This document shows, in pieces, positions 7,018 through 29,094 of a stretch of DNA of 29,094 bases; the first letter of the stretch is position 1; every line of letters begins with the position of its first letter. Made by a program: the position numbers and the translations under genes. The stretch is from a virus. The notes beneath the pieces were generated by a model. It did not search any database and had not been told where the DNA came from. It saw only the letters and a list, made by a program, of their open reading frames with translations. The DNA lies in IMG/VR virus record IMGVR_UViG_3300021373_001135, positions 1 through 29,094 of that record; one strand, 5' to 3'.

Positions 7018-7129
7018 AATTTTTCTTTTTTATTTTTTTAGCTTTACTAAGTTCTTGCAAAGATATGGGAATTATTTTCTTCCCTTTTGCTTCTATTTTT
7101 TTTCTTAATTCAGGTGTTAGTTTTATCAT
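7004..7129 (-). CDS. Small basic protein of 41 residues
   Basis: A short frame whose ATG overlaps the TGA of the large fibre gene as ATGA, the junction type used throughout this operon. The product begins MIKLTPELRKKIEAKGKKII and is rich in Lys, with no Cys and no membrane span. It ends 14 nt inside the next gene. It could be a real coupled gene, or a spacer that holds the -7 box at 7058-7065. Coupling at the start favours a gene. No function is recognised. Confidence 0.5.
   Translation of the reverse strand: MIKLTPELRKKIEAKGKKIIPISLQELSKAKKIKKKNYDKL
7058..7065 (-). promoter_or_regulatory. Possible internal -7 promoter box
   Basis: The minus strand reads TATCTTTG, a fit to TAnnTTTG, 40 nt upstream of the ATG at 7017. 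It lies inside the short 41-residue frame, so it could be a chance match in AT-rich sequence. If real, it would start a transcript at the small conserved gene after the fibres. Confidence 0.3.
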
Positions 7130-10100
7130 ACTTCGTATGCTGGTAGTACGTAGTCTGTTCCATCTATATTGACTGTCAACCACGTGTCGGGTTCTGATAG
7201 GTAGTAAGTTTCATCACCACCACTTTTTACTTGAGCCTGCGTTGGTGTACCTGTCGTTGGTGCAGTTGAAGGACCAGCGCTTGCTGTATCTATTCTAATT
7301 GAATCGGTAACGTGTAGTTTAGCATCAGGATTAGTTGTCCCAATACCTACGTTACCGCTAGATGCGATACGCATTCTTTCTACATTATTAGTACCAAACA
7401 AGGTTGGTGTATTGTCGTAATTCCACATTGCTACAGAACTACCTGTGTTCCAAAATCTTAAACCATCAGTAGCTCCTGAACCTGTAGAACTTGATAATAT
7501 CTGCATTGAATTAATAGAACCACCACCAACAGTAAGTTCATAGTTAGGAGAAATAGTTCCTATACCGACGTTGCCGCTTGAATCAATATATAATCCATCT
7601 GAAGTTGTAGAGTTTGTTCTGAGATGTAGTTCGTTATAAGTAGAAGCACTATTTGAATATCCTATAATCTGAGAAGCTGTAGTATTATTTCCATTTATGA
7701 CTACACCTACGTTATTTGAAGTATCAAAAGACGCAGCGTATACGTTACTACTGTCTACACTTAGTTTCCAAGTTGCAGGATTAGTCGTTCCAATCCCGAC
7801 GTTACCTGAACCATTTATTCTTACTGCTTCTATTTCACTTCCGCCACCACTGGGAGCAACATTAAATGCTAAACCGTTATTAAATCCTTTTATAGCACCA
7901 CCAGAATTTATAATATTATCACCAGTAACTCTTATTAAACCATCACCACTTGTAGCGTGAACGTGCAACTTAGCACTAGGACTAGTAGTTCCTATACCGA
8001 CGTTGCCGCCAGTTTTTAGGTACAAAGTAGAACTGTTGTTAGGTACGTCTATAAAATTAAAAGTCCCTGAATCTCCAAAATCAATTCTACCTTGAATAAC
8101 ATCTAATTCATCTTTATATCTTAATTGAGCAGAATGCGCTCCTTTCAAATCTAGTAAAGGTATTCCGATTGAATGAGTGGTTTCTAATATAAAATTAGCG
8201 CCTGTTCCGCTTGTGGACTCTACGTGAAGTTTACTATCTGGACTAGTCGTACCAATACCAACGTTGCCGGCGGAGTCGATGCGCATAAGTTCAACAAGAC
8301 TTTGGTCTGCTAAATTTGCGTTTGGAACTGAACTAAATATTAAATCGCCGCTTATGTTAGTGTCTTGCGAAATAACAAAACCTTTTGCTCCTCTAGTTGT
8401 AAATGTATTAGAGTTTGTATTATCAGCACTAAATGCTATAAACGGCGAACCTGATGAAGACATTGCCCCTAAAGTTCCGTAGTATTGTCCACTTTGATTT
8501 AAGTGTCCAAACTCAATTGAACTTCCATTTTGTCTTGAAGTTAATTTAGACTGAGTTTGATTGGACGTAACGCCAATTAAAACTTTACCTCCAGAGGCGA
8601 TACGCATTCTTTCAGATGCATTTGTACCATTTCCTGTAGCTGCTGTTCCAAAAGTTAAATCTCCATATCCGTTTATTTTATTTTTAGAACTATCTGCAAC
8701 AATGTTTATTCCTACTCCTGTAATATTGTTACTTCTTGTTAACCTAAAACCTGTCGCTCCGGAAGGTTGGTAGATATGTAATCTACTAGCAGGACTATCC
8801 GTACCAATACCAACGTTGCCATCAGGTAATATACTCAGCTTAGTGGAATCATCCATTGAAAAGTGCATACCATACCCGCTGTTTGCACCTGTAACATCTA
8901 TTCTTGCACCTGCTGTACCTACAGTAAGTTTTCCAAACACTGTTGAACTATTAGACCACCTTAACGCTTCTCCATTTACACCGTCAATATGAAGCTTAGT
9001 AGTAGGACTAGTAGTTCCTATACCTACGTTGCCGCTTGAGTTGATATACAGTCTATCTGTGCTATTTGTTTTGAGTGATAACGTATTACTTGAGCTGTTA
9101 CCTGCTATTTTAGTTGTATCAGCACCCCAGCTTAGAGTATAGCCGTCATCAATGCGGACATTACCAACTACGTGTAACTTCTGAGAAGGACTAGTAGTTC
9201 CAATACCTACGTTACCTGGGAAGGTTGAGTTTGTAGAAGTAAATGTTCCAATAAGTGAATCTCCACTACTCAACATTTTTAGCTGACCATTCCCGTCGTT
9301 TTGTATTCTTGCAATACCACCGATATTACCAAGTGCAATATCGCCACCAGCAGTTGCTTTATAGTATGTTGCATTTACATCACCTGCAAAAGTTGCGTTA
9401 CCAGTATTAGTGTCAAAAGTATGCTTTACTGTTGTTGTATGATTTCTAAAGTAAATTTTAGAATCATTGTTATTAAAGGTTGAACCAGGTGTTTGTATTA
9501 GTGTACCAGCAGTTACATTTGAGTAAAGTGTATCTGTACCATCAGCACCCTGAAACCAACTTCTTGACCTTATCCTACCGTCTACATCAAGCTTTTGACT
9601 AGGACTAGTAACACCAATACCAACGTTGCCGTTTCCAGCAATGCGCATACGCTCAACATTATTCGTTCCTAAAATAAGCGGTCCATTATAATAATTTATA
9701 ATATTTGCCTCGTCTGTAGTAGAATTGTTAAAAATTTGCAATCCACTAATAGCAGAGCCGCTTTGAACCGTAATTGCAGAAGTTGTAGTTCCAACAACTG
9801 TTAATTTACTTACAGGACTAGTCGTACCAATACCAACGTTTCCTGTAAAAATTGCAGACATATCGTGATTTAAAGTCAATGATGTTCCCCCACCAGTAAC
9901 AAACACTATATTAGAAGTGCTTAATGTAGCAGTATTTTTTATTATACTCCAATTGTTGCTACTACCTGCTGTGTCATTTTTAATTGCTAAACCTGTTCCA
10001 TCTATATTTAAAGATGCAGTATTTGTATATAATCCTGTACCACCTAGACCTACATCACCTGCAAAAGTTGACATTCCTGTTGCAATAGTTAATTCTGTGA

Positions 10101-10698
10101 CAGCAGATGGTTGTAAATAAATAGGTTTATTTTCCCCAGTATTATAATCTGACTGAATTAATAAAGCATCTGCTGCTCTTATATATGCACTGGCAGCATC
10201 ATTTGTAAATGTTAATTCATTACCATTTATATTGAGGTCATCTGTAATAGTTACATCACCTGTTACACTAATTCCTGTGCTTGTGGTTTCAAACTTTTTA
10301 GAGTTGTCAAAAAATAATTCTACAGATGAATCTTGGTTTGCTCTAAGTGAAATTTCAGAAGTACCATATTTAGCAACTACAAAATCATCGCTATAGTATA
10401 ATAATAAATCTCCTACTCCTTTATCTATTATATATGAGTTAGAGCCATCGTGTCCTATTTGTAAATCATCTCCTGTCCCCCAGTAAGAATATACACTGTC
10501 TCCATTTTTAATAGAACCAGTCATTGTACCACCAGCAAGCGGTAAGTAAGGACCACCTGGTAAACCGCTTCCACTTACCCAGTTGATACCAGTACCAGTA
10601 GAAGTTAAAACCTGCCCTGATGTTCCTGCATCTCCGCTTGTATCTAAAAACTTATCTAGTAATTGTAACTCTGTGCTTATTTTTTTAATTTCTGCCAT
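7126..10698 (-). CDS. Giant repeat-containing tail fibre protein
   Basis: A 1190-residue protein made largely of repeats. The N-terminal region (MAEIKKISTELQLLDKFLDT, then GGPYLPLAGGTMTGSI) resembles fibre segments that join to the virion. A LQIGHDGSNSYI segment at about 79-90 is a motif recalled from marine phage fibres. After about residue 280 there are ten copies of GNVGIGT(T/x)(S/N)P followed by a KLHV-type strand, plus one degenerate copy (GKVLIGVTSN), spaced mostly 60-110 residues apart. The protein ends in an extended strand, DGTDYVLPAYEV. Repeats of this kind probably build a trimeric beta-rich shaft. There is no catalytic motif. It lies 3 nt after the second giant fibre gene. Confidence 0.85.
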   Translation of the reverse strand: MAEIKKISTELQLLDKFLDTSGDAGTSGQVLTSTGTGINWVSGSGLPGGPYLPLAGGTMTGSIKNGDSVYSYWGTGDDLQIGHDGSNSYIIDKGVGDLLLYYSDDFVVAKYGTSEISLRANQDSSVELFFDNSKKFETTSTGISVTGDVTITDDLNINGNELTFTNDAASAYIRAADALLIQSDYNTGENKPIYLQPSAVTELTIATGMSTFAGDVGLGGTGLYTNTASLNIDGTGLAIKNDTAGSSNNWSIIKNTATLSTSNIVFVTGGGTSLTLNHDMSAIFTGNVGIGTTSPVSKLTVVGTTTSAITVQSGSAISGLQIFNNSTTDEANIINYYNGPLILGTNNVERMRIAGNGNVGIGVTSPSQKLDVDGRIRSRSWFQGADGTDTLYSNVTAGTLIQTPGSTFNNNDSKIYFRNHTTTVKHTFDTNTGNATFAGDVNATYYKATAGGDIALGNIGGIARIQNDGNGQLKMLSSGDSLIGTFTSTNSTFPGNVGIGTTSPSQKLHVVGNVRIDDGYTLSWGADTTKIAGNSSSNTLSLKTNSTDRLYINSSGNVGIGTTSPTTKLHIDGVNGEALRWSNSSTVFGKLTVGTAGARIDVTGANSGYGMHFSMDDSTKLSILPDGNVGIGTDSPASRLHIYQPSGATGFRLTRSNNITGVGINIVADSSKNKINGYGDLTFGTAATGNGTNASERMRIASGGKVLIGVTSNQTQSKLTSRQNGSSIEFGHLNQSGQYYGTLGAMSSSGSPFIAFSADNTNSNTFTTRGAKGFVISQDTNISGDLIFSSVPNANLADQSLVELMRIDSAGNVGIGTTSPDSKLHVESTSGTGANFILETTHSIGIPLLDLKGAHSAQLRYKDELDVIQGRIDFGDSGTFNFIDVPNNSSTLYLKTGGNVGIGTTSPSAKLHVHATSGDGLIRVTGDNIINSGGAIKGFNNGLAFNVAPSGGGSEIEAVRINGSGNVGIGTTNPATWKLSVDSSNVYAASFDTSNNVGVVINGNNTTASQIIGYSNSASTYNELHLRTNSTTSDGLYIDSSGNVGIGTISPNYELTVGGGSINSMQILSSSTGSGATDGLRFWNTGSSVAMWNYDNTPTLFGTNNVERMRIASSGNVGIGTTNPDAKLHVTDSIRIDTASAGPSTAPTTGTPTQAQVKSGGDETYYLSEPDTWLTVNIDGTDYVLPAYEV

Positions 10699-13600
10699 AT
10701 CTTATGCGTAAGTTGAATTGATTGCTGTTCCTGTTGCTTCTACTGTTACCCTGGGTGTGTAGGATTTTGTTCCGCTTGTTGATTTAAAAGTAAATGTAAT
10801 AGTTGTAGCGTTGGCTGAAGCTTCAACATCAAAATCATTAGTTCCTTCATCTATAACTTTTTTAGTAACCCAAGTACCACTACCGTTGTAACAGCTGTAT
10901 ACTATCTTTTGATAACCTCCAGAATGCCCAAAGCATATAAAAGTAAATCCTGCAGAAGCACCGTTATATCCAGTTGTTAACCCTGCTACAGCGTTACCAG
11001 TCGTGTCTAACGAGCTATAGTTTTTTGAATAAGTAACTACGCCACCTGCATTTATACCGTCTGATACAGTTAACTTATACGAAGGACTAGTCGTACCGAT
11101 ACCTACGTTGCCGGAAGAATCAATGCGCATTCTTTCTGCAGATTGAGCGTCATCAACTATTAAAAATGAATTAGATGCTGCGCCTAAATAGTACCTACCT
11201 GTACCACTTCCGGTTCTTTCTAAATATAATTGGTCGGTACTAGATGCTACTGCAATGTGTAATCCCGAAACATCATTAGCAGGCGAAGTAGTACCAATAC
11301 CAACTTTGCCGTTTAAATCAACTGTAACTCTATCGGTATCTGATGTTCTTAATGCTACACCTGTTCCATCTGACCTTACAAGACCTGAAGTAACTCCTGT
11401 TGTGCCTGTAATTGCAAAGCCTTTTCCGTTAGATACGTTAGTTCTAATATTTCCTACAACTTCAAGTTTCATACCTGAGTTAGGACTAGTAGTTCCTATA
11501 CCTACGTTGCCATCGTTAGTAATACGCATTCTTTCTGCTGCGTTTACAATAGTTTGAAGACTATTATTAGAGTGGTCATATTTAATAATTCCAATATCGT
11601 TATTACCACTATCGCCAAATACAAGTCTTCCTGATTGAGTTGCTCCTGAAAGTATTTGAATACCTGATATTGCTGAACCATCGGCAACTATTTGATAAGC
11701 TGTATCTACCGTTGCTCCTGAGCCAGTTCCAACGTGTAATTTAGTAGCAGGACTAGTAGTACCAATACCTACGTTACCGTTTTCTTGAATACGCATTAAT
11801 TCAGTGCCGTCATCGGCGGTACCATTTGTTCTAAATCTATAACTAGAAGTACCGCTATTATTATCTGAGTCAATTTGAAAAATCATTGAATCAGCAGAAA
11901 TTAATCTACCTCCTGCTACTCCAGATTCACCTATTTTTATAGTGCTATGAACTTCAAGTGGTTGTGAAGGACTAGTAGTACCAATCCCTACGTTTCCTGC
12001 TCTAGTCATTGACACAACATCAGTAGCAGTTGTTAAAGCATCATTAAATGCTCTAAACTTTAAAATTGATGTTTCGGATTGAATACCCCATCTTTTTGCA
12101 TCAGCAATTTGGTCAACTTCTTCTAATAGTAGAATAGGATTAGCGTGAGTTAAATGCAATAGTGTTTGTGGTGCTGTCGTACCAATCCCGACGTTGCCTG
12201 CTGAGGTAACACGCATTCTTTCGGTCTCGTTATTTGCATCTCCGGTTATGAAACTAATAATACCGTATTCTGAGGCTAGTTTTAGATTGTTTTCACTATC
12301 GTGGAGTTGAATGTAACTTCTACGGGTTCCGCTTTGTACAAAGCTAATATATGGACTTCCGGCTGCGTTGCCGCTTTCTAGTCTTGCAAGTTCATCTCCA
12401 GTACTAACTACGTGAAGCTTTGCTCCAGGGCTAGTAGTCCCGATACCAACGTTACCTGTGAAATAAGAGTCACCTGTGCCTTGGACAGCTAATGTACCTG
12501 CAAAAGTTGCGTTTTGTGATGAATTTATTGTAAGAGCTGTAGTACTTCCACCAGTTCTAACTACAAATTGATTATCACTTTGCAACTCAAAACTATCACC
12601 ACTATCTACATATTGAATATATGCTTTTTGAGCTCCTCCTTGTGTAAATTGTAAAAATGGACTACCTGTTGCCGCCCCTGCTACCGTTAGTATATTTGTT
12701 GCATTTACATTACCTGCAAAAGTTGCGTTGTTACCACTAACTGTTATTGGTGCATCTGTTAAAGTATTAGATGTACCTGAACCTGACCAAAGAGCGACTT
12801 TTTGACCTGTACCAGACCCGTCTAATACAGAAGAGTTATCTACTTTTTCCCAAGCGTCTGTAGCTCCTTGCTCTACAAATACAGCCCAGTCACCAACTTT
12901 CCAATCAGTTATACCATCTAAGTTAGTAGAACCATCCGTTGATACTATATAAAAATGACCTGTTGTACCTGACCCACTTGCAAGTGTTGGTGTATTTGTA
13001 GCCGCATCCCACGTTCCTTGAAATACTAAACCTGCAGGTATTGTACCTATTAAATTTTGTACAAATGCTGTAGTAGCTACCGTAGTGTCGTTTGTTGCGT
13101 TTGCTTTTGTTACAGCTGTAGTTGCTGTGTTTATTGTGCCGTTTAAATCACCTGAAAAAGTGGTTGCAGTTGCAGTTCCTGTTACACTAACGCCTGCACT
13201 TGTGGTTTGAAGTTTAACACTATTATTGTATCTTATTTTTACATCTGCGTTTTCATTTATCTGTATTCCATTCTCACCGTTACTTGCATTTAGGTTTATT
13301 TGGTTCGAAGAAATATTTAAAGTACCTGTACCTGTATCAGCAATATAACTATTAGAACCGTCGTGGTATATTTGAAGGTCAGCTGCTGCTCCTAATCTTA
13401 TTCTACTATTGTCTACAAGGTTTATATTACCTCCTGATATCTCTAATCCACTTGACGCTCTTATTTGACCAGTGACATCTAATTTAACTCCAGGACTAGT
13501 AGTACCAATACCTACGTTGCCGTTATTAAACCAAGAAGTTCCATTACCTCTAACACTAAATAATTCCGTTCCATCTTGCTTTCTTATAAGTAAAGGAGCA

Positions 13601-15606
13601 TCTCCTGAATCACTACCTGCTGTTACAACAACTCCATTAGAGTTATTTGTATTTTCAAACCAACCTGCCCAACCATTAACATTAGTAATTGAACGAATAC
13701 CACCTATTCCGGCAGCATTAACATCTACTTTGTAACCAGGACTAGTCGTTCCAATACCGACGTTGCCGCCGTTGAAATGTGAATCACCATAAGTTCTTAT
13801 GTTTACAGTTTCTACACCACCGCTTTTTCCTACTACAAAACCACCTGCGCTACTTGCTCCTATCTCATAGTAATTAGAAGTATTATAACTAGCTCTAATT
13901 CTACCAATGACATCAAGTTTTTGTTGCGGACTACTCGTCCCAATACCTACATTACCGTCTTGTTGAGCTGTTATGATAGGAGTTGAATTATCAGCTGTTC
14001 TAGATATAATAAATTTTTCCGTACTAGCTATACCTGTATACCAACCAGCTGTATCATCTGTATTTGTAAATTTAATAAAACCACCATTAGCATCTCCTTG
14101 GTGGAGGTACAACATTTCATAATTAGTGGATTCTATTCTTACCTGACCGTTTACTTCTAGTTTTTTAGTAGGACTAGTCGTTCCTATTCCTACGTTACCG
14201 TTATTAAGTATATTGAATCTGTAGTTGCTGGCAGTTTCGTCCCATATAGCTAAACTAGAATTTAAAGCAGATATAACAAATGTATCTCCTCCTCCATCTA
14301 AACGAACTGATGGATTTGTACCTGCTAAATTTAAACCTCTAAATCCATTTCCTAATGATTCTGAATAGTATAAATTTTCTGAACCGTCTACAACGTGAAG
14401 TTTAGCTACTGGTGATGTAGTACCAATGCCTACGTTTCCTTCTTGAGTAAGTCTCATAACTTCTCCAACTGTCCCTGCGTTAGCAGTGTGAAATGACAAG
14501 TCGCCTCCTTGTGCTGAATCAGTATTTACTTCTACATCACTTCTTATTCTTGCGTACACAGCCTCTGTAGCATTAGCTGTGTTAAAACTAAAATCTAAAA
14601 ATGATGCAGCTGCTGTTGATGAATTGGGTCTGTGTAAATTTAATATGCTTCCCCCATCCTTACTAATATCTAAGGCATAGTTAGGACTCGTAGTCCCGAT
14701 ACCTACGTTGCCACTAGAGGTGATACGAACACGTTCTGTATTTCCTGTTGAAAAAGAGTGGCTACCCGAACTATTTCCTGAAGACTTGTAATCTACATTC
14801 GCTCCGTCTACTGTTAAATAAAGGCTTTGAGTAGAGTGTCCTATTCTTGTTTGATAAGTGCCGTCAGCTCCAACAACGTGTAACTTGCTTGCAGGACTAG
14901 TTGTACCAATACCGACGTTACCGGATGCATTAATACGCATAGCTTCAGAAGGCGCTCCTGAGACATCTCCTTTTGTAGAAAAAGCTAAACCAGTAGTGCT
15001 TCCGTAAACACTAGTTTCATTGACTAAATTTATACTAGCTCTTACGGAATTAGCAGCAGAGCCAGAAGAATCTTTGCTAAAATATTCTAAAGAAGCAATC
15101 GTTTGTCCAATAGTCCAACTTGCATCTCTTGTCCCCGTTATTCTAAGAGTTGGTATTGAGTCTGAGATATCTAACTTAGCCCCTGGACTAGAAGTACCAA
15201 TCCCAACGTTATTTGTGTCTTTTTGAATAAACAGTCCGTCTGTTCCATCAGCTCTCAAGTGCAAAGAGTTCCACCCAGCACCCGATGTGTCAATTCCGTT
15301 TATCCTATACTCGTCAGTACTTTGTATTGTTAAACTTATTCCTGTAGAACTATCTCCAGCTTTAACTGTGCCTTCAATATGTAACTTAGCTACAGGACTA
15401 GTCGTCCCTATCCCTACGTTACCTGTACTGGTAACTGAGACCCTATCATTAGACCCGTCTCTAATAAGAAGAGTAGACCCATTAAGTCTAAAATCATATT
15501 TATTAGAGTCATTCTCTAATGAAAATATATTAGAACCTCCTGAACCTGAAACCTTTATATGCAAAGGTGATGTAGGGCTATTTACACCTATTCCTACTTT
15601 GCCGCT
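7312..15606 (-). repeat. About 28 coding repeats of GNVGIGTTSP across two fibre genes
   Basis: Counting by eye gives 17 copies in the longer fibre gene and 10 clear plus one degenerate copy in the shorter. At DNA level the + strand core stays recognisable, roughly GGACTAGTNGTNCC followed by AATACCNACGTTNCC, with synonymous changes mostly at third positions. The intervals between copies differ in length and sequence. The DNA likeness would allow recombination between copies. Confidence 0.85.
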
Positions 15607-15639
15607 ATAAACGGCATTGTCTATTATTCTAATTGGCAT
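10702..15639 (-). CDS. Giant repeat-containing tail fibre protein, longer paralogue
   Basis: A 1645-residue protein, the longest in the window, with 17 copies of the (G/N)(N/K)VGIGxxxP motif, each followed by a KLHV or KLDV type strand. The first copy begins only about 12 residues from the N terminus. Near the middle it carries a LQIYHDGSNSYI motif and then a repeat-poor region (TAFVQNLIGTIPAGLVFQGT and beyond) like the distal parts of cyanophage-type fibres. The C-terminal end (about 1600-1645) is a Thr/Ser-rich beta segment ending TAINSTYA. It shares its repeat with the adjacent 1190-residue protein, so the two probably arose by duplication. A structural tail fibre used for adsorption is the likely role. 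Confidence 0.85.
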   Translation of the reverse strand: MPIRIIDNAVYSGKVGIGVNSPTSPLHIKVSGSGGSNIFSLENDSNKYDFRLNGSTLLIRDGSNDRVSVTSTGNVGIGTTSPVAKLHIEGTVKAGDSSTGISLTIQSTDEYRINGIDTSGAGWNSLHLRADGTDGLFIQKDTNNVGIGTSSPGAKLDISDSIPTLRITGTRDASWTIGQTIASLEYFSKDSSGSAANSVRASINLVNETSVYGSTTGLAFSTKGDVSGAPSEAMRINASGNVGIGTTSPASKLHVVGADGTYQTRIGHSTQSLYLTVDGANVDYKSSGNSSGSHSFSTGNTERVRITSSGNVGIGTTSPNYALDISKDGGSILNLHRPNSSTAAASFLDFSFNTANATEAVYARIRSDVEVNTDSAQGGDLSFHTANAGTVGEVMRLTQEGNVGIGTTSPVAKLHVVDGSENLYYSESLGNGFRGLNLAGTNPSVRLDGGGDTFVISALNSSLAIWDETASNYRFNILNNGNVGIGTTSPTKKLEVNGQVRIESTNYEMLYLHQGDANGGFIKFTNTDDTAGWYTGIASTEKFIISRTADNSTPIITAQQDGNVGIGTSSPQQKLDVIGRIRASYNTSNYYEIGASSAGGFVVGKSGGVETVNIRTYGDSHFNGGNVGIGTTSPGYKVDVNAAGIGGIRSITNVNGWAGWFENTNNSNGVVVTAGSDSGDAPLLIRKQDGTELFSVRGNGTSWFNNGNVGIGTTSPGVKLDVTGQIRASSGLEISGGNINLVDNSRIRLGAAADLQIYHDGSNSYIADTGTGTLNISSNQINLNASNGENGIQINENADVKIRYNNSVKLQTTSAGVSVTGTATATTFSGDLNGTINTATTAVTKANATNDTTVATTAFVQNLIGTIPAGLVFQGTWDAATNTPTLASGSGTTGHFYIVSTDGSTNLDGITDWKVGDWAVFVEQGATDAWEKVDNSSVLDGSGTGQKVALWSGSGTSNTLTDAPITVSGNNATFAGNVNATNILTVAGAATGSPFLQFTQGGAQKAYIQYVDSGDSFELQSDNQFVVRTGGSTTALTINSSQNATFAGTLAVQGTGDSYFTGNVGIGTTSPGAKLHVVSTGDELARLESGNAAGSPYISFVQSGTRRSYIQLHDSENNLKLASEYGIISFITGDANNETERMRVTSAGNVGIGTTAPQTLLHLTHANPILLLEEVDQIADAKRWGIQSETSILKFRAFNDALTTATDVVSMTRAGNVGIGTTSPSQPLEVHSTIKIGESGVAGGRLISADSMIFQIDSDNNSGTSSYRFRTNGTADDGTELMRIQENGNVGIGTTSPATKLHVGTGSGATVDTAYQIVADGSAISGIQILSGATQSGRLVFGDSGNNDIGIIKYDHSNNSLQTIVNAAERMRITNDGNVGIGTTSPNSGMKLEVVGNIRTNVSNGKGFAITGTTGVTSGLVRSDGTGVALRTSDTDRVTVDLNGKVGIGTTSPANDVSGLHIAVASSTDQLYLERTGSGTGRYYLGAASNSFLIVDDAQSAERMRIDSSGNVGIGTTSPSYKLTVSDGINAGGVVTYSKNYSSLDTTGNAVAGLTTGYNGASAGFTFICFGHSGGYQKIVYSCYNGSGTWVTKKVIDEGTNDFDVEASANATTITFTFKSTSGTKSYTPRVTVEATGTAINSTYA

Positions 15640-21598: not shown

Positions 21599-21606
21599 TA
21601 TCTTTG
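21599..21606 (+). promoter_or_regulatory. Candidate -7 promoter box for the winged-helix gene
   Basis: TATCTTTG fits TAnnTTTG and lies 27 nt before the ATG at 21634. It is back to back with a leftward box at 21612-21619 in a 42-bp divergent gap, the same arrangement as at 17798-17826. No -33 TTTG is visible at 19-21 nt. Confidence 0.5.
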
Positions 21607-21611
21607 TCTTG

Positions 21612-21619
21612 CAAATTTA
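21612..21619 (-). promoter_or_regulatory. Candidate -7 promoter box for the small-gene array
   Basis: The minus strand reads TAAATTTG, a fit to TAnnTTTG, 20 nt before the ATG at 21591. The 20-nt distance is the same as for the fibre operon and close to that for groEL (21 nt) and the packaging operon (18 nt), which supports a real promoter. It overlaps the leader of the divergent regulator gene. Confidence 0.55.
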
Positions 21620-21633
21620 ATGAAATTTATTTT

Positions 21634-22077
21634 ATGTCTAAAAATCAAGATTACCTAAAATATTGGAAAGTAATAAGGTATTATGTGCAGGCTAAGTACG
21701 GTATAAGGTCAGCAGACCTAGATATGCTACTGTTCCTATATTCTGAAAAATACTTTGGCAAACAACAGTTTAATGACTTCGATAAACTACTATCTTGGGA
21801 TATAAACCGATTTAATAGATTACTTAGTGATGGATGGATATCAGTCTTTAGAAAACGTCAAGGCAACAAAAAGACATTGTACGAATTATCGTACAAAGGA
21901 AAGCGAATGATTTCTTCTGTATATAAGAAACTTAATGGTGAGGAGATACCGATGAGTGAATCAGCCAACCCTATGTTCGCTAAGAACGTGTCATTTTCCG
22001 ATAAGGTCTATCGTAATATGATTGTCCGTATGAACAAGTACATTAGAGAACAACGACAACATCATTTTCAGAAATGA
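21634..22077 (+). CDS. Putative MarR-like winged-helix regulator
   Basis: A 147-residue protein that looks like a winged-helix DNA-binding protein. About residues 23-95 contain DLDMLLFLYSEKYF, then a helix-turn-helix-like stretch INRFNRLLSDGWISVFR, a hairpin or wing KRQGNKKTLYELSYKGK and a following helix. The start at 21634 is preferred over an in-frame TTG 30 nt upstream, because that TTG sits on the -7 box. It runs against the surrounding leftward genes, lies between divergent promoters, and its 3' end overlaps the groES 3' end by 35 nt. A role in timing leftward transcription is plausible from position; DNA targets are unknown. Confidence 0.6.
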   Translation: MSKNQDYLKYWKVIRYYVQAKYGIRSADLDMLLFLYSEKYFGKQQFNDFDKLLSWDINRFNRLLSDGWISVFRKRQGNKKTLYELSYKGKRMISSVYKKLNGEEIPMSESANPMFAKNVSFSDKVYRNMIVRMNKYIREQRQHHFQK

Positions 22078-24806: not shown

Positions 24807-24815
24807 CTTAAGTGC

Positions 24816-24850: not shown

Positions 24851-25048
24851 ATATTTAACAGATAACAAGAGGTGAGGCATAACCCCTTAGACCAATTTCA
24901 TATGACCTAACAAATCATAGTGAACTTTGACATAAAATCTTGAGATGATATTCTTATCAATTCGATTTAAGGCTATTTAGAGCCGTTTTAAGAGACTTTA
25001 GTACCTTTTTGGGGTACTGATACCTAAAAGAAAAGATAATCTAATCGC

Positions 25049-25395
25049 CTGATAATCAGTCAGTTACAGAGGTGATTTTGTTCAATACTCGTTCAACCCC
25101 AATGAAATCAAGGGATGAGGTTATATTAATACATCTAGACCTAATGATATCAATGGATTAGACTACAATTAGACTAACAACAAATGCTCAAATAAATTTT
25201 TTCTCGCTGATTATCAGTGAGTTACAAATTATTTTCGTTTAATATTAGTTTATTCCAATTTTAATTTATAATCTTTGTAAACCAAATCGCAAGGAGGTAT
25301 GTCTCCAAAATTGACAGATTAGGTGCTAACAGACTGATAATCAAGCAGTTACAGAGTTTAACTCAACGTAACTAACTGATAATCAGCCACTTACA
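25049..25395 (+). repeat. Four copies of a 20-bp iteron-like element
   Basis: The copies are at 25049-25068, 25207-25226, 25334-25353 and 25376-25395, and fit CTGATWATCARNSASTTACA with few deviations. The first 11 bases form a palindrome in most copies (CTGATAATCAG) and the last five are always TTACA, so the element is a palindrome with a fixed, oriented tail. All copies share the same orientation. Spacings are 158, 127 and 42 bp. Origin iterons, an activator site or attachment-type arm sites are the main options. Confidence 0.65.
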
Positions 25396-25440
25396 AGGTA
25401 TGATGTTGGAATACATCGAGGCGTACACAATCGCAGTAAC

Positions 25441-25654
25441 TTGTAAGGGATAGTTCTTTGACATATTGATACAAAGCTAGTGAGAAACCTACCCTAAACG
25501 TACATAGTACGATGCAGTAAGGATGGACAGAAGAGTTAGGATGGAATCTTGGGTTGGATATACGAACACGAACGTATAACGATATGCACCGCAGTCGAGT
25601 ATCAATAATGAAGGGATTTGCACCGAATTGCAAACTAAAAACACCAAAGAAATT
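25441..25654 (+). other. Probable structured leader or non-coding RNA upstream of the right arm
   Basis: No gene is supported here. The sequence can fold: AGGG-A-TAG (25446-25453) pairs with CTACCCT (25489-25495), enclosing CTTTG/CAAAG (25456-25460 and 25472-25476). Next are CGTAC-ATA-GTACG (25499-25511) and TTTGCA/TGCAAA (about 25616-25633). The start, TAGTTCTTTGACATATTG, has a TTTG that could serve as a -33 element, though no proper -7 box follows. It leads directly into the first hairpin leader at 25655, so it may be the 5' part of the main rightward transcript. The structure is read by eye. Confidence 0.4.
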
Positions 25655-25707
25655 AAGCCCATTCTGCTAGACGGAATGGGCTTTTGGTGGTATAAAACAA
25701 TAACACA
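25655..25707 (+). promoter_or_regulatory. Hairpin leader element, copy A (before the 215-residue gene)
   Basis: AAGCCCATTC pairs perfectly with GAATGGGCTT (10 bp) around the loop TGCTAGACG. It is followed by GGTGGTATAAAACAATAACA and then the ATG at 25708. Compared with copies B-D the stem sequence differs but the pairing is kept. The four T residues after the stem might give weak termination, but the placement before a start codon suggests a 5' leader. Confidence 0.6.
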
Positions 25708-26355
25708 ATGAATAATTTAACACAACAAGAAGTAAACTTCTTAAACAAAAAAGTAGTAAAGTCTAACCTAAAATTAGCAGAGTTTAGCAAGAAATCAAAG
25801 TCAGCATCTGACTACAAAATAGAGGCGATGAAACGCACTATTGCGGAGTATAGATTGGTTGCACAAGGTTGCGATTGGTTGCAGTCAAAGGAAGGTAAAG
25901 CATTGCGTAAGGAGTGTGGAGTATTTGAGACTAAGGTTGAGTATGGTCAAAAGCTATACAATATCGGTCAATCAATGATTAGCCGAGTACACAAGTTTGG
26001 TAATATTGAGCAGTCATTCTTCGATGCATACCTTGAGTTTGGTAAGACCTGTCCAAGAAGATTCACACTAGATATCAAGCAAATACTGAAAGTGTATGTA
26101 GTCCTTGAGAACGATGGCGATAACTATAGTGCAGAGTTGATATGCGATGTCTTCAAAGCGTGGGAGACCAAAGATGAGGAAGAGCCAACACAAGAGCCAA
26201 GCGAAGAGCCAAGCGAAGAGCCAAGCGAAGAAGGTGAAGATTTAGCTACCTTGTTTAGTCTGAAGGCTAATGGTCAATGGTTCATCCACGATTCAGTAGA
26301 CAACAAAGAGATGGCTGAAAGATTAATAAAAATAGCCAATCAGATACAATCATAA
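25708..26355 (+). CDS. Protein of unknown function with an acidic repeat
   Basis: A 215-residue protein. The N-terminal two thirds (about 1-155) are charged and probably helical (MNNLTQQEVNFLNKKVVKSN, MKRTIAEYRLVAQGCDW, ending near ICDVFKAW). Residues about 157-175 are a low-complexity acidic linker made of tandem EPSE units (QEPSEEPSEEPSEE), encoded by nearly identical 12-nt DNA repeats. A short C-terminal domain follows (FSLKANGQWFIHDSVDNKEM and onwards). I do not recognise the family. It is the first gene of the right arm, behind hairpin leader A, with a GTGTAC palindrome after its stop. As an early gene, a regulatory or host-takeover role is possible but unproven. Confidence 0.75.
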   Translation: MNNLTQQEVNFLNKKVVKSNLKLAEFSKKSKSASDYKIEAMKRTIAEYRLVAQGCDWLQSKEGKALRKECGVFETKVEYGQKLYNIGQSMISRVHKFGNIEQSFFDAYLEFGKTCPRRFTLDIKQILKVYVVLENDGDNYSAELICDVFKAWETKDEEEPTQEPSEEPSEEPSEEGEDLATLFSLKANGQWFIHDSVDNKEMAERLIKIANQIQS

Positions 26356-26358
26356 AAA

Positions 26359-26374
26359 GTGTACCATAGTACAC
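26359..26374. repeat. GTGTAC palindrome, copy 2
   Basis: GTGTACCATAGTACAC has perfect 6-bp arms. It starts 3 nt after the stop of the 215-residue gene and is followed 12 nt later by the hairpin leader of the next gene. The same order recurs at 28332. Confidence 0.65.
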
Positions 26375-26375
26375 A

Positions 26376-26438
26376 CTATCATCTTGCCCCATATCGTAAC
26401 TGATATGGGGTTAAGGTGGTAAAAAAAACAATAACATT
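26376..26438 (+). promoter_or_regulatory. Hairpin leader element, copy B
   Basis: After the box ACTATCATCTTG, CCCCATATC (26387-26395) pairs perfectly with GATATGGGG (26402-26410) around GTAACT. Then come TTAAGGTGGT (26411-26420), an A-rich stretch and the ATG at 26439. It heads the cluster of five genes ending with the ArdC-like gene. Confidence 0.65.
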
Positions 26439-26825
26439 ATGAAGTTAGTTAAAAAATTAGATTACGAGACATTTGAAAACATCATTGTAACTGCTCTTGA
26501 GGGTGGTAGTAACTATTGGTATATGCTAGGTGACATAAAAGGTTGCCCATTGCCCAATGAGATGCCCGAAAAATATTATGCACCATCAGAACGTATAGCA
26601 TACGGATTATGGCACAACAAAAATGCAAGGGTAAAGATATATGATTCAGAGAATCAAGAAGAGTTGTTAGGTATGCTAACATACGATAGTGTGAGAGAGA
26701 GAATGCAATTAGCTACTGAAGATTATTTGAGTGAGTTAGAGGCAATGATTAGTGGAGATTTTGATGCGTGGACAGCAGACACATTGTTTCAAGTATTAGT
26801 AATGGGAGAAGTAGTATTTGGATAA
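26439..26825 (+). CDS. Conserved Bacteroidota phage protein of unknown function
   Basis: A 128-residue acidic protein with ETFENIIVTALEGGSNYWYM near the start (about 11-30), then PSERIAYGLWHNKNARVKIY and EELLGMLTYDSVRERMQLAT, and a C-terminal FDAWTADTLFQVLVMGEVVF. I recall the same sequence of motifs (TALEGGxxYWY, then LxxxxIxxxxxL, then DAxTADxxFQxxVMGExVFG) from many phages and mobile elements of Bacteroidota, where it has no assigned function. It is the first gene after hairpin leader B and is followed by two tightly packed small genes. There are no membrane spans and no Cys motif. Confidence 0.8.
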   Translation: MKLVKKLDYETFENIIVTALEGGSNYWYMLGDIKGCPLPNEMPEKYYAPSERIAYGLWHNKNARVKIYDSENQEELLGMLTYDSVRERMQLATEDYLSELEAMISGDFDAWTADTLFQVLVMGEVVFG

Positions 26826-26829
26826 AATT

Positions 26830-26982
26830 ATGAGAGAAACAATTTTAAAAGTCGTAGCAGTAAGCTATGCAATTATGACAATGATGCTAGTATGCATCTC
26901 ACGAATAGATTTAGCTTGTATCTTCGGTCTAGTATCAATGATATCAGCATTAGAGTTAACACACATAAAGATTAAAAAATGA
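26830..26982 (+). CDS. Small membrane protein of 50 residues
   Basis: A 50-residue frame starting 4 nt after the previous stop. It is mostly hydrophobic: segments at about 7-23 (KVVAVSYAIMTMMLVCI) and 27-42 (DLACIFGLVSMISALE), with a basic end (HIKIKK). Two membrane spans with the C terminus in the cytoplasm are likely. The stop overlaps the next ATG as ATGA. Small membrane proteins of this kind in early phage arms are often host-interaction factors, but no function can be assigned. Confidence 0.65.
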   Translation: MRETILKVVAVSYAIMTMMLVCISRIDLACIFGLVSMISALELTHIKIKK

Positions 26983-27131
26983 ATAGAAGAATTGAAGAAT
27001 GGGATAGAATAAGCTATCCCTACAAGCTAATGTACAAACGCAATGAGATAACTAACAAGTTGGACATTGTGAAGGTGTACTACAACGAACAAGGAGAATT
27101 TACCCACTATGATATAGTTGGGAGAGGTTAA
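26979..27131 (+). CDS. Small protein of 50 residues
   Basis: A 50-residue frame starting MNRRIEEWDRISYPYKLMYK, continuing RNEITNKLDIVKVYYNEQGE and ending FTHYDIVGRG. Its ATG overlaps the stop of the membrane protein gene. It is charged and aromatic-rich, without Cys or membrane spans. No family is recognised. Confidence 0.65.
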   Translation: MNRRIEEWDRISYPYKLMYKRNEITNKLDIVKVYYNEQGEFTHYDIVGRG

Positions 27132-27156
27132 CAATTAAAACAATATAATTAGAAAA

Positions 27157-27378
27157 ATGAATAGAGATAAACACATATGGGAAGGTTGGACAGTCGGAGA
27201 TTTTATTGATGACATCGAACCAAGTTTTAGAATGATACAAAACAATCATATACCAACAATATTTGAAGGTTTTAAATCTAAGCAAGAATTAAAGCAATGG
27301 GTTAAAAATATGCAACCCTACTATAAAAAGCATATACCCGAAGTATACAAATACTTTTTAAGCAAAACAAATCTTTAA
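27157..27378 (+). CDS. Small conserved phage protein of 73 residues
   Basis: A 73-residue protein with WEGWTVGDFIDDIEPSFRMI near the start and KQWVKNMQPYYKKHIPEVYK near the end. I recall this layout (WTVGDFIxDxEPxF, then a KxxxxxWxxxxQPYYKKxIPEVxxYF end) from small proteins of Bacteroidota phages; the function is unknown. It lies 25 nt after the preceding gene and 23 nt before the ArdC-like gene, so it belongs to the same unit. Confidence 0.72.
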   Translation: MNRDKHIWEGWTVGDFIDDIEPSFRMIQNNHIPTIFEGFKSKQELKQWVKNMQPYYKKHIPEVYKYFLSKTNL

Positions 27379-27401
27379 CAAATACAATAAACAATAACAC
27401 A

Positions 27402-28328
27402 ATGAGTAAAACAGATTTTATTTACGACAAGATTAATGATGCAGTCATTGAAGGATTAAAGAAGGATGGTTTGAGTTGGTTCAAGCCATTCGGAGAGGGT
27501 GAGCAGATGTTCCCAATAAACTATGTCAGCAAACGCAGGTACAATGGGTTTAACATCTTCCTACTCAACGCAAAGATGAGAGAGAAGGGTTACGAGTATA
27601 ACCAATGGTTGAGTTTCAAAGCAATAGCCAACAATGGCGGTAAGGTTAAGAAGGGTGAGAAGTCAACTGAAGTGTACCTATGGAGTATGAGTTGGTTGGA
27701 CAATAAGACCAAGAATTTCATCAAGGATAGCAAAGAGGTAAACATCAACGAGAAGTTTGAAGGTATATTTAGATACAAGAAAATATTCTCAATCAAATAC
27801 TATAGGGTATTCAATGTCGAGCAATGCGAGGGTATTGTACCGATTGGTGCAGATGAGCCGAAGGTAGAGAAGACCGAGAACAATCCAATAGAGGTAGCAG
27901 AGAGTGTGGTCAAGCGATACCTTGAGAATGAGCCGAAGTTTAAAATAGTACACGCAGAGAGTGGTAGAGCATACTACAATGTGATAAGAGACTTTGTCAA
28001 CGTACCAAAGATTGAAGGCTTTACTGATTCAGATTCATACTACAAGGTATTGTTTCACGAGTTGGCACATAGCACAGGTCACGAGGATAGACTTAACCGA
28101 AAGTCATTGACAAAGGTTATGAATTGGGGCGATGAGACATACGCAAAGGAAGAGTTGGTTGCAGAGATAAGTAGTATGTATATGGTTGGGTTGCTTGGAC
28201 TCGAGCCACATATAACCAATAGCCAAGCATATATACAAGGGTGGTGTAAGCATCTAAAAGACAAACCAAAGGAGTGTGTGTTTGCGATGCAACAAGCTAC
28301 CAAAGTAGTGGACTATCTACAACGATAA
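27402..28328 (+). CDS. ArdC-type antirestriction protein with zincin-like domain
   Basis: A 308-residue protein with two domains. The N-terminal part (about 1-140) has the ArdC-type single-stranded-DNA-binding pattern: WFKPFGEGE, RRYNGFNIFLLNAKM at about 45-59, QWLSFKAIANNGGKVKKGE at 68-86, and YYRVFNVEQCEG at 133-144. The C-terminal part carries a zinc peptidase-like signature HELAHSTGH at 219-227, with E251 or E255 (KEELVAE) as possible third ligand. ArdC proteins protect incoming DNA from restriction in plasmids and phages. Being in the early arm fits a role in the first minutes of infection. The full motif suggests an active site, but whether it cleaves anything is unknown. Confidence 0.9.
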   Translation: MSKTDFIYDKINDAVIEGLKKDGLSWFKPFGEGEQMFPINYVSKRRYNGFNIFLLNAKMREKGYEYNQWLSFKAIANNGGKVKKGEKSTEVYLWSMSWLDNKTKNFIKDSKEVNINEKFEGIFRYKKIFSIKYYRVFNVEQCEGIVPIGADEPKVEKTENNPIEVAESVVKRYLENEPKFKIVHAESGRAYYNVIRDFVNVPKIEGFTDSDSYYKVLFHELAHSTGHEDRLNRKSLTKVMNWGDETYAKEELVAEISSMYMVGLLGLEPHITNSQAYIQGWCKHLKDKPKECVFAMQQATKVVDYLQR

Positions 28329-28331
28329 AAA

Positions 28332-28347
28332 GTGTACTATAGTACAC
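28332..28347. repeat. GTGTAC palindrome, copy 3 (perfect)
   Basis: GTGTACTATAGTACAC is a perfect 16-bp palindrome, starting 3 nt after the stop of the ArdC-like gene. Hairpin leader C follows 17 nt later. The same gene end, palindrome, leader order is seen at 26359. Confidence 0.7.
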
Positions 28348-28349
28348 AC

Positions 28350-28423
28350 AAACTATCATCTTGCCCCATACTGCTAGTCGGTGTGGGGTTGAGGTGGTAA
28401 AAAACAATTAAACAATTATAATT
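28350..28423 (+). promoter_or_regulatory. Hairpin leader element, copy C
   Basis: The box ACTATCATCTTG is followed by CCCCATAC (28364-28371), loop TGCTAGTCG, and GTGTGGGG (28381-28388), an 8-bp stem with one G-U pair. Then TTGAGGTGGT (28389-28398), an A-rich stretch and the ATG at 28424. The 9-nt loop is almost the same as in copy A (TGCTAGACG). Confidence 0.65.
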
Positions 28424-28642
28424 ATGAAACAAGAAAAAATGAACAAAACCGAAAGGGCTAAAAAAATCTTAAAAGAGATTAGGAGACGAATGTGGGCAAT
28501 GGAAACATTAAGTGATGGTTCTATAATGTCAAACAAAACTTTTGTAGCTATGATGAAATCAATGCCTCATATAGCAGAGAAGTGGCACATTCTTGAGGAT
28601 AGAGAACATATGATTGAAAGATTTATTGTACGCAATAACTAG
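28424..28642 (+). CDS. Small protein of 72 residues
   Basis: A 72-residue, basic and Met-rich protein, probably helical: MKQEKMNKTERAKKILKEIR, then RRMWAMETLSDGSIM and a C-terminal AEKWHILEDREHMIERFIVR. It stands alone between hairpin leaders C and D, so it is its own small transcription unit. An internal ATG at codon 6 is an alternative start. No family is recognised. Confidence 0.68.
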   Translation: MKQEKMNKTERAKKILKEIRRRMWAMETLSDGSIMSNKTFVAMMKSMPHIAEKWHILEDREHMIERFIVRNN

Positions 28643-28711
28643 CCCATCATCTTGCCCCATAGCAGAGACGCTATGGGGTTGAGGTGGTAGAACAATTTAA
28701 TAAAAACAATT
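28643..28711 (+). promoter_or_regulatory. Hairpin leader element, copy D
   Basis: The box ATCATCTTG is followed by CCCCATAGC (28655-28663), loop AGAGAC, and GCTATGGGG (28670-28678), a perfect 9-bp stem. Then TTGAGGTGGT (28679-28688), an A-rich stretch and the ATG at 28712. Here the GTGTAC palindrome is missing between the gene end and the leader. Confidence 0.65.
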
Positions 28712-29094
28712 ATGAAATTTAACGATTTAAAATTTAAACAATTAGAAAATGGTGTGGGTGCTACCCATACATTTGACAATGGAACTACGATTAGCGTTCA
28801 AGCATCAGAGAATCACTACTGCTATCCAAAAGAAAATCTAAATTCAAAAAATGATTATTCATCTTTTGAGGTAGCCGTATTTGATATCGATAATGAGTTT
28901 GTAACAAAAGACTACATCAAAGATGCAGATGACGATGTATTCGGATGGGCAAAGCGATACGACATTGAAAACCTAATGGATTTGATATTAACTAAAATAC
29001 GAGAGGGTAATCAGTTAGAAAAAGGTTTGACGTATGCAGTAGATAATAAATTCATTACGATGAGTCAAGCATTTGAAATTATAAGAAACATTAA
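28712..29094 (+). CDS. Protein of unknown function, cut by the right edge
   Basis: An open frame of 127 codons without a stop, running off the window. It begins MKFNDLKFKQLENGVGATHT and contains TISVQASENHYCYPKEN, FEVAVFDIDNEFVTKDYIKD and FGWAKRYDIENLMDLILTKI. The first half is likely beta-rich and the second helical. It is acidic, with no signal peptide. It starts 23 nt after the GGTGGT of leader D. No family is recognised with confidence. Confidence 0.72.
   Translation, partial: MKFNDLKFKQLENGVGATHTFDNGTTISVQASENHYCYPKENLNSKNDYSSFEVAVFDIDNEFVTKDYIKDADDDVFGWAKRYDIENLMDLILTKIREGNQLEKGLTYAVDNKFITMSQAFEIIRNI

Follow-up and report, generated by a model that had tools for sequence, protein, structure and literature searches.

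The DNA studied here is a 29,094-base virus record (IMG/VR record IMGVR_UViG_3300021373_001135; the window hereafter means this whole stretch) with a left arm on the minus strand and a right arm on the plus strand from position 25,708. The left arm carries terminase, portal-like, fibre-like and chaperonin genes; the right arm carries small genes and an ardC-like anti-restriction gene. Four hairpins (A to D), each preceding a right-arm start codon, had been proposed from the sequence alone to be copies of one repeated leader. Folding recovers all four, with minimum free energies of -25.0, -26.4, -26.4 and -26.3 kcal/mol, respectively, each reached by at most two of 1000 Markov shuffles (z from -3.7 to -5.0).

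Hairpin A (25642..25692, plus strand) is built of a basal CACCAAA/TTTGGTG stem, an internal loop of 7 nucleotides (nt) and an apical AAGCCCATTC/GAATGGGCTT stem closed by the loop TGCTAGAC, and is followed by an A-rich leader that runs to the ATG at 25708. It has no gene upstream and heads the first right-arm gene (25708..26355, plus strand; 215 amino acids [aa], function unknown), which also follows hairpin A in the related contig L004. Hairpin B (26377..26421, plus strand) pairs TATCATCTT with AAGGTGGTA in a basal stem of 9 base pairs (bp), two of them G.U, and CCCCATATC with GATATGGGG in an apical stem closed by GTAACT; the ATG at 26439 opens a 128-aa open reading frame (ORF; 26439..26825, plus strand) assigned to phrog_2355, of unknown function. 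Hairpin C (28354..28399, plus strand; basal stem TATCATCTT/GAGGTGGTA, apical stem CCCCATAC/GTGTGGGG) occupies the gap between the ardC-like gene (27402..28328, plus strand), which encodes ArdcN and zincin-like peptidase domains, and a 72-aa ORF (28424..28642, plus strand) starting with the ATG at 28424. The gap between this ORF and the next one (28712..29094, plus strand; open at the window end) holds hairpin D (28645..28689, plus strand; basal stem CATCATCTT/GAGGTGGTA, apical stem CCCCATAGC/GCTATGGGG, loop AGAGAC).

Hairpins B, C and D lie 2-25 nt past the stop codon of a codirectional gene, and each is one hairpin in two parts, about 45 nt long (9+9 bp in B and C), in which the basal and apical stems are continuous except for a bulge or internal loop of 1-3 nt. 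The original prediction had treated GGTGGTA and an upstream ATCATCTTG box as separate conserved boxes; both are present, but they are the two strands of one basal stem, ATCATCTTG forming the 5' strand and AAGGTGGTA or GAGGTGGTA the 3' strand in these three copies. Hairpin A has a basal strand unlike that of B to D and a larger internal loop. The loop TGCTAGWCG that had been noticed in A and C is indeed common to both; the corresponding leaders of L004 and L210 likewise retain the A-type loop, although their stems differ and carry compensatory changes.

A conserved RNA structure in related phages

Relatives were gathered from IMG/VR by way of their ArdC, first-gene, terminase and GroEL proteins, and a pattern search found the same hairpin in several of them. 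A first covariance model made from 18 copies added more from the same loci, nearly all of them on the strand of the right arm, and the further copies now number about 50 in some 20 related phage contigs, placed on the coding strand of that arm. With a cut-off of E 0.1, 18 of the 50 records searched had matches, and every clear one was a right-arm copy; the highest number per genome, about 12 genuine copies, is found in L258. The motif is also present in six more IMG/VR contigs and in phage contigs of one metagenome-assembled genome (MAG). Its general form is a hairpin of about 45 nt with a GC-rich apical stem of 7-11 bp, a loop that is usually A-rich or of the UAR type, and a basal stem with the conserved sequence DGGTRGTA in its 3' strand.

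The compensatory stem changes originally proposed for the four window copies hold for these and for the further copies alike; the outcome named beforehand as refuting the prediction, a lack of additional copies with such changes, did not occur. The apical helix is 95.2% paired in a 37-copy alignment, with two-sided changes at eight of its nine pairs, and the covariation score of this alignment was reached by none of 500 shuffles, nor did slid controls come near it. Since the alignment had been fitted to the structure, two further checks were made. A DNA pattern in which only the outer letters CCAACCTC and GGGGATTTGGTGGTA were fixed returned eight distinct inner stems, all of them paired (shuffle p of 0.0007-0.026 each). 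The other check relied on model R3, made from 39 copies of which none came from the window, L004 or L210. When the 29-kb window was searched with R3, the four known hairpins were the top four matches (D, E 4.6e-8; B, 6.4e-8; C, 1e-5; A, 1.1e-5; fifth match, 0.2), these copies being held out in sequence and not in structure, as the R3 alignment was made with a model that had included them; R3 also recovers the L004 and L210 copies. The apical helix is 96.8% paired in 39 non-window copies, with two-sided changes at seven of nine pairs. In the basal stem, a C-G pair has become G-C in L338, where the change of GGTGG to CGTGG is matched by that of CCACC to CCACG (CCACG/CGTGG). The hairpin is thus a repeated cis RNA element with a conserved structure, its covariation exceeding that of shuffled and slid controls, held-out copies included, and its covariation and held-out detection exclude a chance origin.

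The mRNA-sense fold is more stable than that of the complement in 37 of 40 copies (mean -23.9 versus -17.6), the sense strand folding better because of G.U pairs (80 in all). This preference favours an RNA over a DNA cruciform, and the hairpin probably acts as an mRNA element; together with the covariation and the held-out detection, it bears out the shared RNA-level element envisaged originally.

A comparison of the window with Rfam 15 at gathering cut-offs gave no match and the best sub-threshold matches at relaxed thresholds were implausible, in agreement with the original prediction, which could name no described family that fits. Among cultured relatives, Gundel_1 and phi13:2 gave marginal partial matches only and an elemo phage, Calle_2 and phi40:1 none; no equivalent repeated hairpins were seen in the gaps examined in phi13:2, elemo and Calle_2. 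A loose DNA pattern run across IMG/VR returned mostly chance matches.

Gene borders, cassettes and other features of the record

Most copies lie directly between codirectional genes. Of the 46 copies within reach of an upstream gene, 42 begin their pairing 10 nt or more (mostly 10-23 nt) past the stop codon, and in 30 of 31 copies outside L258 and L239 the hairpin is separated from the start codon by 16 nt or more. These two genomes carry hairpin arrays along up to a dozen consecutive small genes, with many hairpins ending 0-6 nt before the ATG (GGTAGTATG), an arrangement in which the start region would be sequestered by the hairpin. Among genes with a 35-250 nt gap in 32 relatives, a strong hairpin precedes 37% of those in the right arm and 5% of those in the left.

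The suggestion that the repeat moves with gene cassettes is supported by the genes around it. The hairpin behind ardC is kept in five phages (the window, L004, L229, L242 and L252), mostly with a different gene following; the core order ardC-hairpin-F3 of L242 is expanded by one gene in the window, L229 and L252. Homology between the window and L004 spans ardC and the hairpin and stops at the leader. At this junction L004 lacks a homologue of the 72-aa ORF, and homologues of the ORF headed by hairpin D are themselves hairpin-headed in L229 and L242. A hairpin shared by L345 and L346 is immediately followed by a 99-aa gene in L345 and not in L346, and leader A is followed by different genes in the window and L004 on the one hand and in L210 on the other. 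On the 3' side, homology ends at a density of 3.8 per kb within hairpin leaders, compared with 1.9 for other gene starts and an overall value of 1.4. Hairpin and A-rich start region together act like a constant header on gene cassettes that can be exchanged.

Hairpins B and C are directly preceded by companion short palindromes, GTGTACCATAGTACAC (26359..26374) and GTGTACTATAGTACAC (28332..28347), which had escaped the original prediction. Their form, GTGTAC(C/T)ATAGTACAC, is related to the short-hairpin core GTGTC-YTYRAR-GACAC of relatives, in which GTGT-N8-ACAC elements stand in front of right-arm genes; phages without the long hairpin often have right-arm hairpins of this short type. The short palindromic hairpin is a second family-wide element (L128, L215, L216, L219-L221, L227, L245, L266-L268 and L287) that has extended stems, often ends 15-16 nt before the ATG and precedes right-arm genes; given its dyad symmetry, a DNA operator would also fit. 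Read on the minus strand, the window palindromes at 26359-26374 and 28332-28347 are followed by TTTTT and are terminator-like, and no minus-strand gene is evident there. A single plus-strand ORF amid the left-arm genes (21604-22077) matches phrog_17028 and a transcriptional-regulator PHROG, and its predicted product is a candidate binder of the palindromes. The gene next to groES on the opposite strand of MW202828 is annotated as a repressor.

Other features of the record include two very large fibre-like proteins full of GNVGIGTTSP repeats (7126-10698, 1190 aa; 10702-15639, 1645 aa; both on the minus strand). The divergent noncoding region of 1.8 kb contains four iteron-like repeats CTGATAATCAG-NN-AGTTACA (25041-25398), and two GCTTGTAAGCGTTTA copies lie at 24814 and 24834; this repeat region, partly conserved in L004 and L210, is possibly a replication origin or a regulator array. 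With the terminase of MW202828.1, a 60.8-kb podovirus assembly from Manatee Spring, the window terminase shares 78% identity; for those of Flavobacterium elemo phages, Cellulophaga phi13:2, phi19:3 and phi40:1 and Tenacibaculum Gundel_1 the figure is 32-46%. A Bacteroidota host is likely. No match between the right arm and named phages was found by blastn. A search of a genome collection yielded nothing but phage contigs lying in MAG bins, and so gave no host assignment; contigs of the phage group (L334 [CP070801.1], L332, L326 and L327) are found in MAGs labelled Aenigmatarchaeota, Woesearchaeota and Aliivibrio, probably by mis-binning.

Possible functions of the hairpin

The reading that we tentatively favour, and to which we give not quite an even chance, is that the hairpin is a phage RNA motif not described before that marks cistron boundaries for mRNA processing or stability, by analogy with the promoter early stem loops (PeSLs) of phage T4. 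Right-arm mRNAs would then be polycistronic with hairpins between the cistrons, and each hairpin would stay folded while both neighbouring cistrons are translated, because of the distances that separate most copies from the upstream stop codon and, outside L258 and L239, from the start codon. Such a boundary element may set the 5' end or the stability of each cistron, either by blocking an exonuclease or through cutting by a double-strand-specific RNase such as RNase III, and the repeated copies would offer homologous sites where neighbouring cassettes are gained and lost, as in T4 PeSLs. The right-arm genes may be early and the hairpin may control their expression, as the original prediction supposed.

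A number of observations weigh against a cistron-boundary role. Conservation of GGTRGTA is stricter in sequence than in pairing (42-53% in the basal helix), a hint at specific recognition and not at a simple barrier. The preference for the sense strand is partly built in, the copies having been found by folding that strand; the cassette enrichment is moderate, about twofold over other gene starts, and the homology ends are not independent; and the 5' ends and operons of these phages are themselves predictions. Hairpins that end 0-6 nt before the ATG, as in L258 and L239, should hinder initiation, and initiation in F. johnsoniae disfavours structure from -20 to +20 (PMC6847099). The computed accessibility of the start region is alike with the hairpin native, deleted or shuffled (0.64, 0.63 and 0.64). 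The simplest version of the hairpin as a translation insulator that frees the start region therefore fails. What remains is a role as an mRNA boundary (exonuclease block or processing) or in protein recognition, and both can hold.

Under protein recognition in its own right, an RNA-binding protein of the phage or the host would bind the hairpins and regulate all right-arm genes jointly, as with the T4 RegA or gp43 operators. The retention of DGGTRGTA even where basal pairing is lost, the many copies per genome before unrelated genes and the coverage of the start region in L258 and L239, which fits repression, all speak for such a site, but we consider it rather unlikely, as loop and stem sequences vary widely, several right-arm genes of the same genome lack the hairpin and no candidate protein was identified. 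That each hairpin might start its own transcript from a phage-specific promoter, as a unit of promoter and stem-loop resembling the T4 PeSLs, seems quite improbable. Three copies do have TTG-N17-23-TAnnTTTG upstream where 0.2 would be expected, a host-type promoter that would place the hairpin inside the 5' leader, and the conserved GTGT..ACAC palindrome before B and C could be an operator. Against this, 36 of 40 copies lack TAnnTTTG, the -7 element of the known Bacteroidota consensus (the one consensus tested in this comparison), within 120 nt upstream; the preceding stop codon is in most cases only 10-23 nt away; no column upstream of the hairpin is conserved; and sigma-70-like matches are as frequent as in shuffles. 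Separate promoters for most copies are therefore unlikely and, with most copies lying between codirectional genes, the four transcription units of the original prediction are not borne out.

A DNA-level element, whether a cruciform or hairpin promoter for an N4-type virion RNA polymerase, an operator or a recombination site, would agree with the perfect dyad symmetry of the companion palindromes and with the breaks in homology near the hairpins. The G.U pairs and the better folding of the sense strand speak against it, and the 3858-aa giant protein of the relative MW202828 has no informative family match and no N4-type polymerase motif, its only DxDxD match being an aspartate run; we regard a DNA-level element as very improbable. 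Intrinsic terminators of the upstream genes, suggested by the frequent position 10-23 nt past stop codons, are scarcely credible given that no T-run follows any of the four window hairpins, that none of them is listed as terminator-like and that copy A has no upstream gene; chance GC-rich palindromes, which we rate no higher, are contradicted by the covariation and the held-out detection.

On a more far-reaching reading, the hairpins would represent an undescribed RNA family and a principle by which Bacteroidota phages organize genes: every cassette of a right-arm operon might hold a single gene under an RNA header (the long GGTGGTA or the short GTGT..ACAC hairpin), with one dedicated phage or host factor processing or regulating all cassettes together; we offer this as a speculative and perhaps unlikely generalization.

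Relation to known phage elements

The nearest known kind of element is the PeSL, a repeated stem-loop header of phage gene cassettes, for which Arbiol (2010) and Comeau (2014) are cited in a later paper (PMC4503421). The PeSLs of T4-type phages are presented as composite promoter-terminator motifs. Like them, the present hairpins are stem-loops that recur where genes meet in a variable region and that accompany the swapping of small genes among related phages. They differ in phages and in sequence, in being a conserved RNA motif with compensatory changes, and in both composite features: 36 of 40 copies are without the Bacteroidota promoter consensus, the only one tested, and no T-run lies behind the four window hairpins. 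We therefore do not class the hairpin as a PeSL.

Early mRNAs of phage T7 have RNase III sites in the form of intercistronic hairpins, with a lower stem, an internal loop and an upper stem, before early genes. The hairpins described here fit such sites in their architecture of two stems, 15-20 bp in all; unlike the T7 sites, they have a conserved DGGTRGTA strand and occur in many copies before small unrelated genes. The CUUCGG intercistronic hairpins of T4 are recurrent stable hairpins between genes that have their loop in common, whereas here the loops vary and the basal 3' strand is shared. In T4, mRNA hairpins also occur where translation begins, and gp43 has an RNA operator (PMC3014915); these are single-gene controls. 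The likeness to these lies in phage mRNA hairpins near start codons, including the sequestration of the start as in L258 and L239; the difference is that the present hairpin is a repeated header with no known protein.

The analysis provides a searchable covariance model for an RNA motif that is absent from Rfam 15 and present in a large group of uncultured phages, whose closest cultured relatives have Flavobacteriia as hosts. As Shine-Dalgarno pairing is not used by these bacteria, little is known of how the many small genes of their phages are ordered and controlled. If the hairpin is truly a cassette header, it would mark gene borders and help in the search for small genes, those for anti-defence among them, and modular headers like those of T4 would have arisen in another phage lineage.

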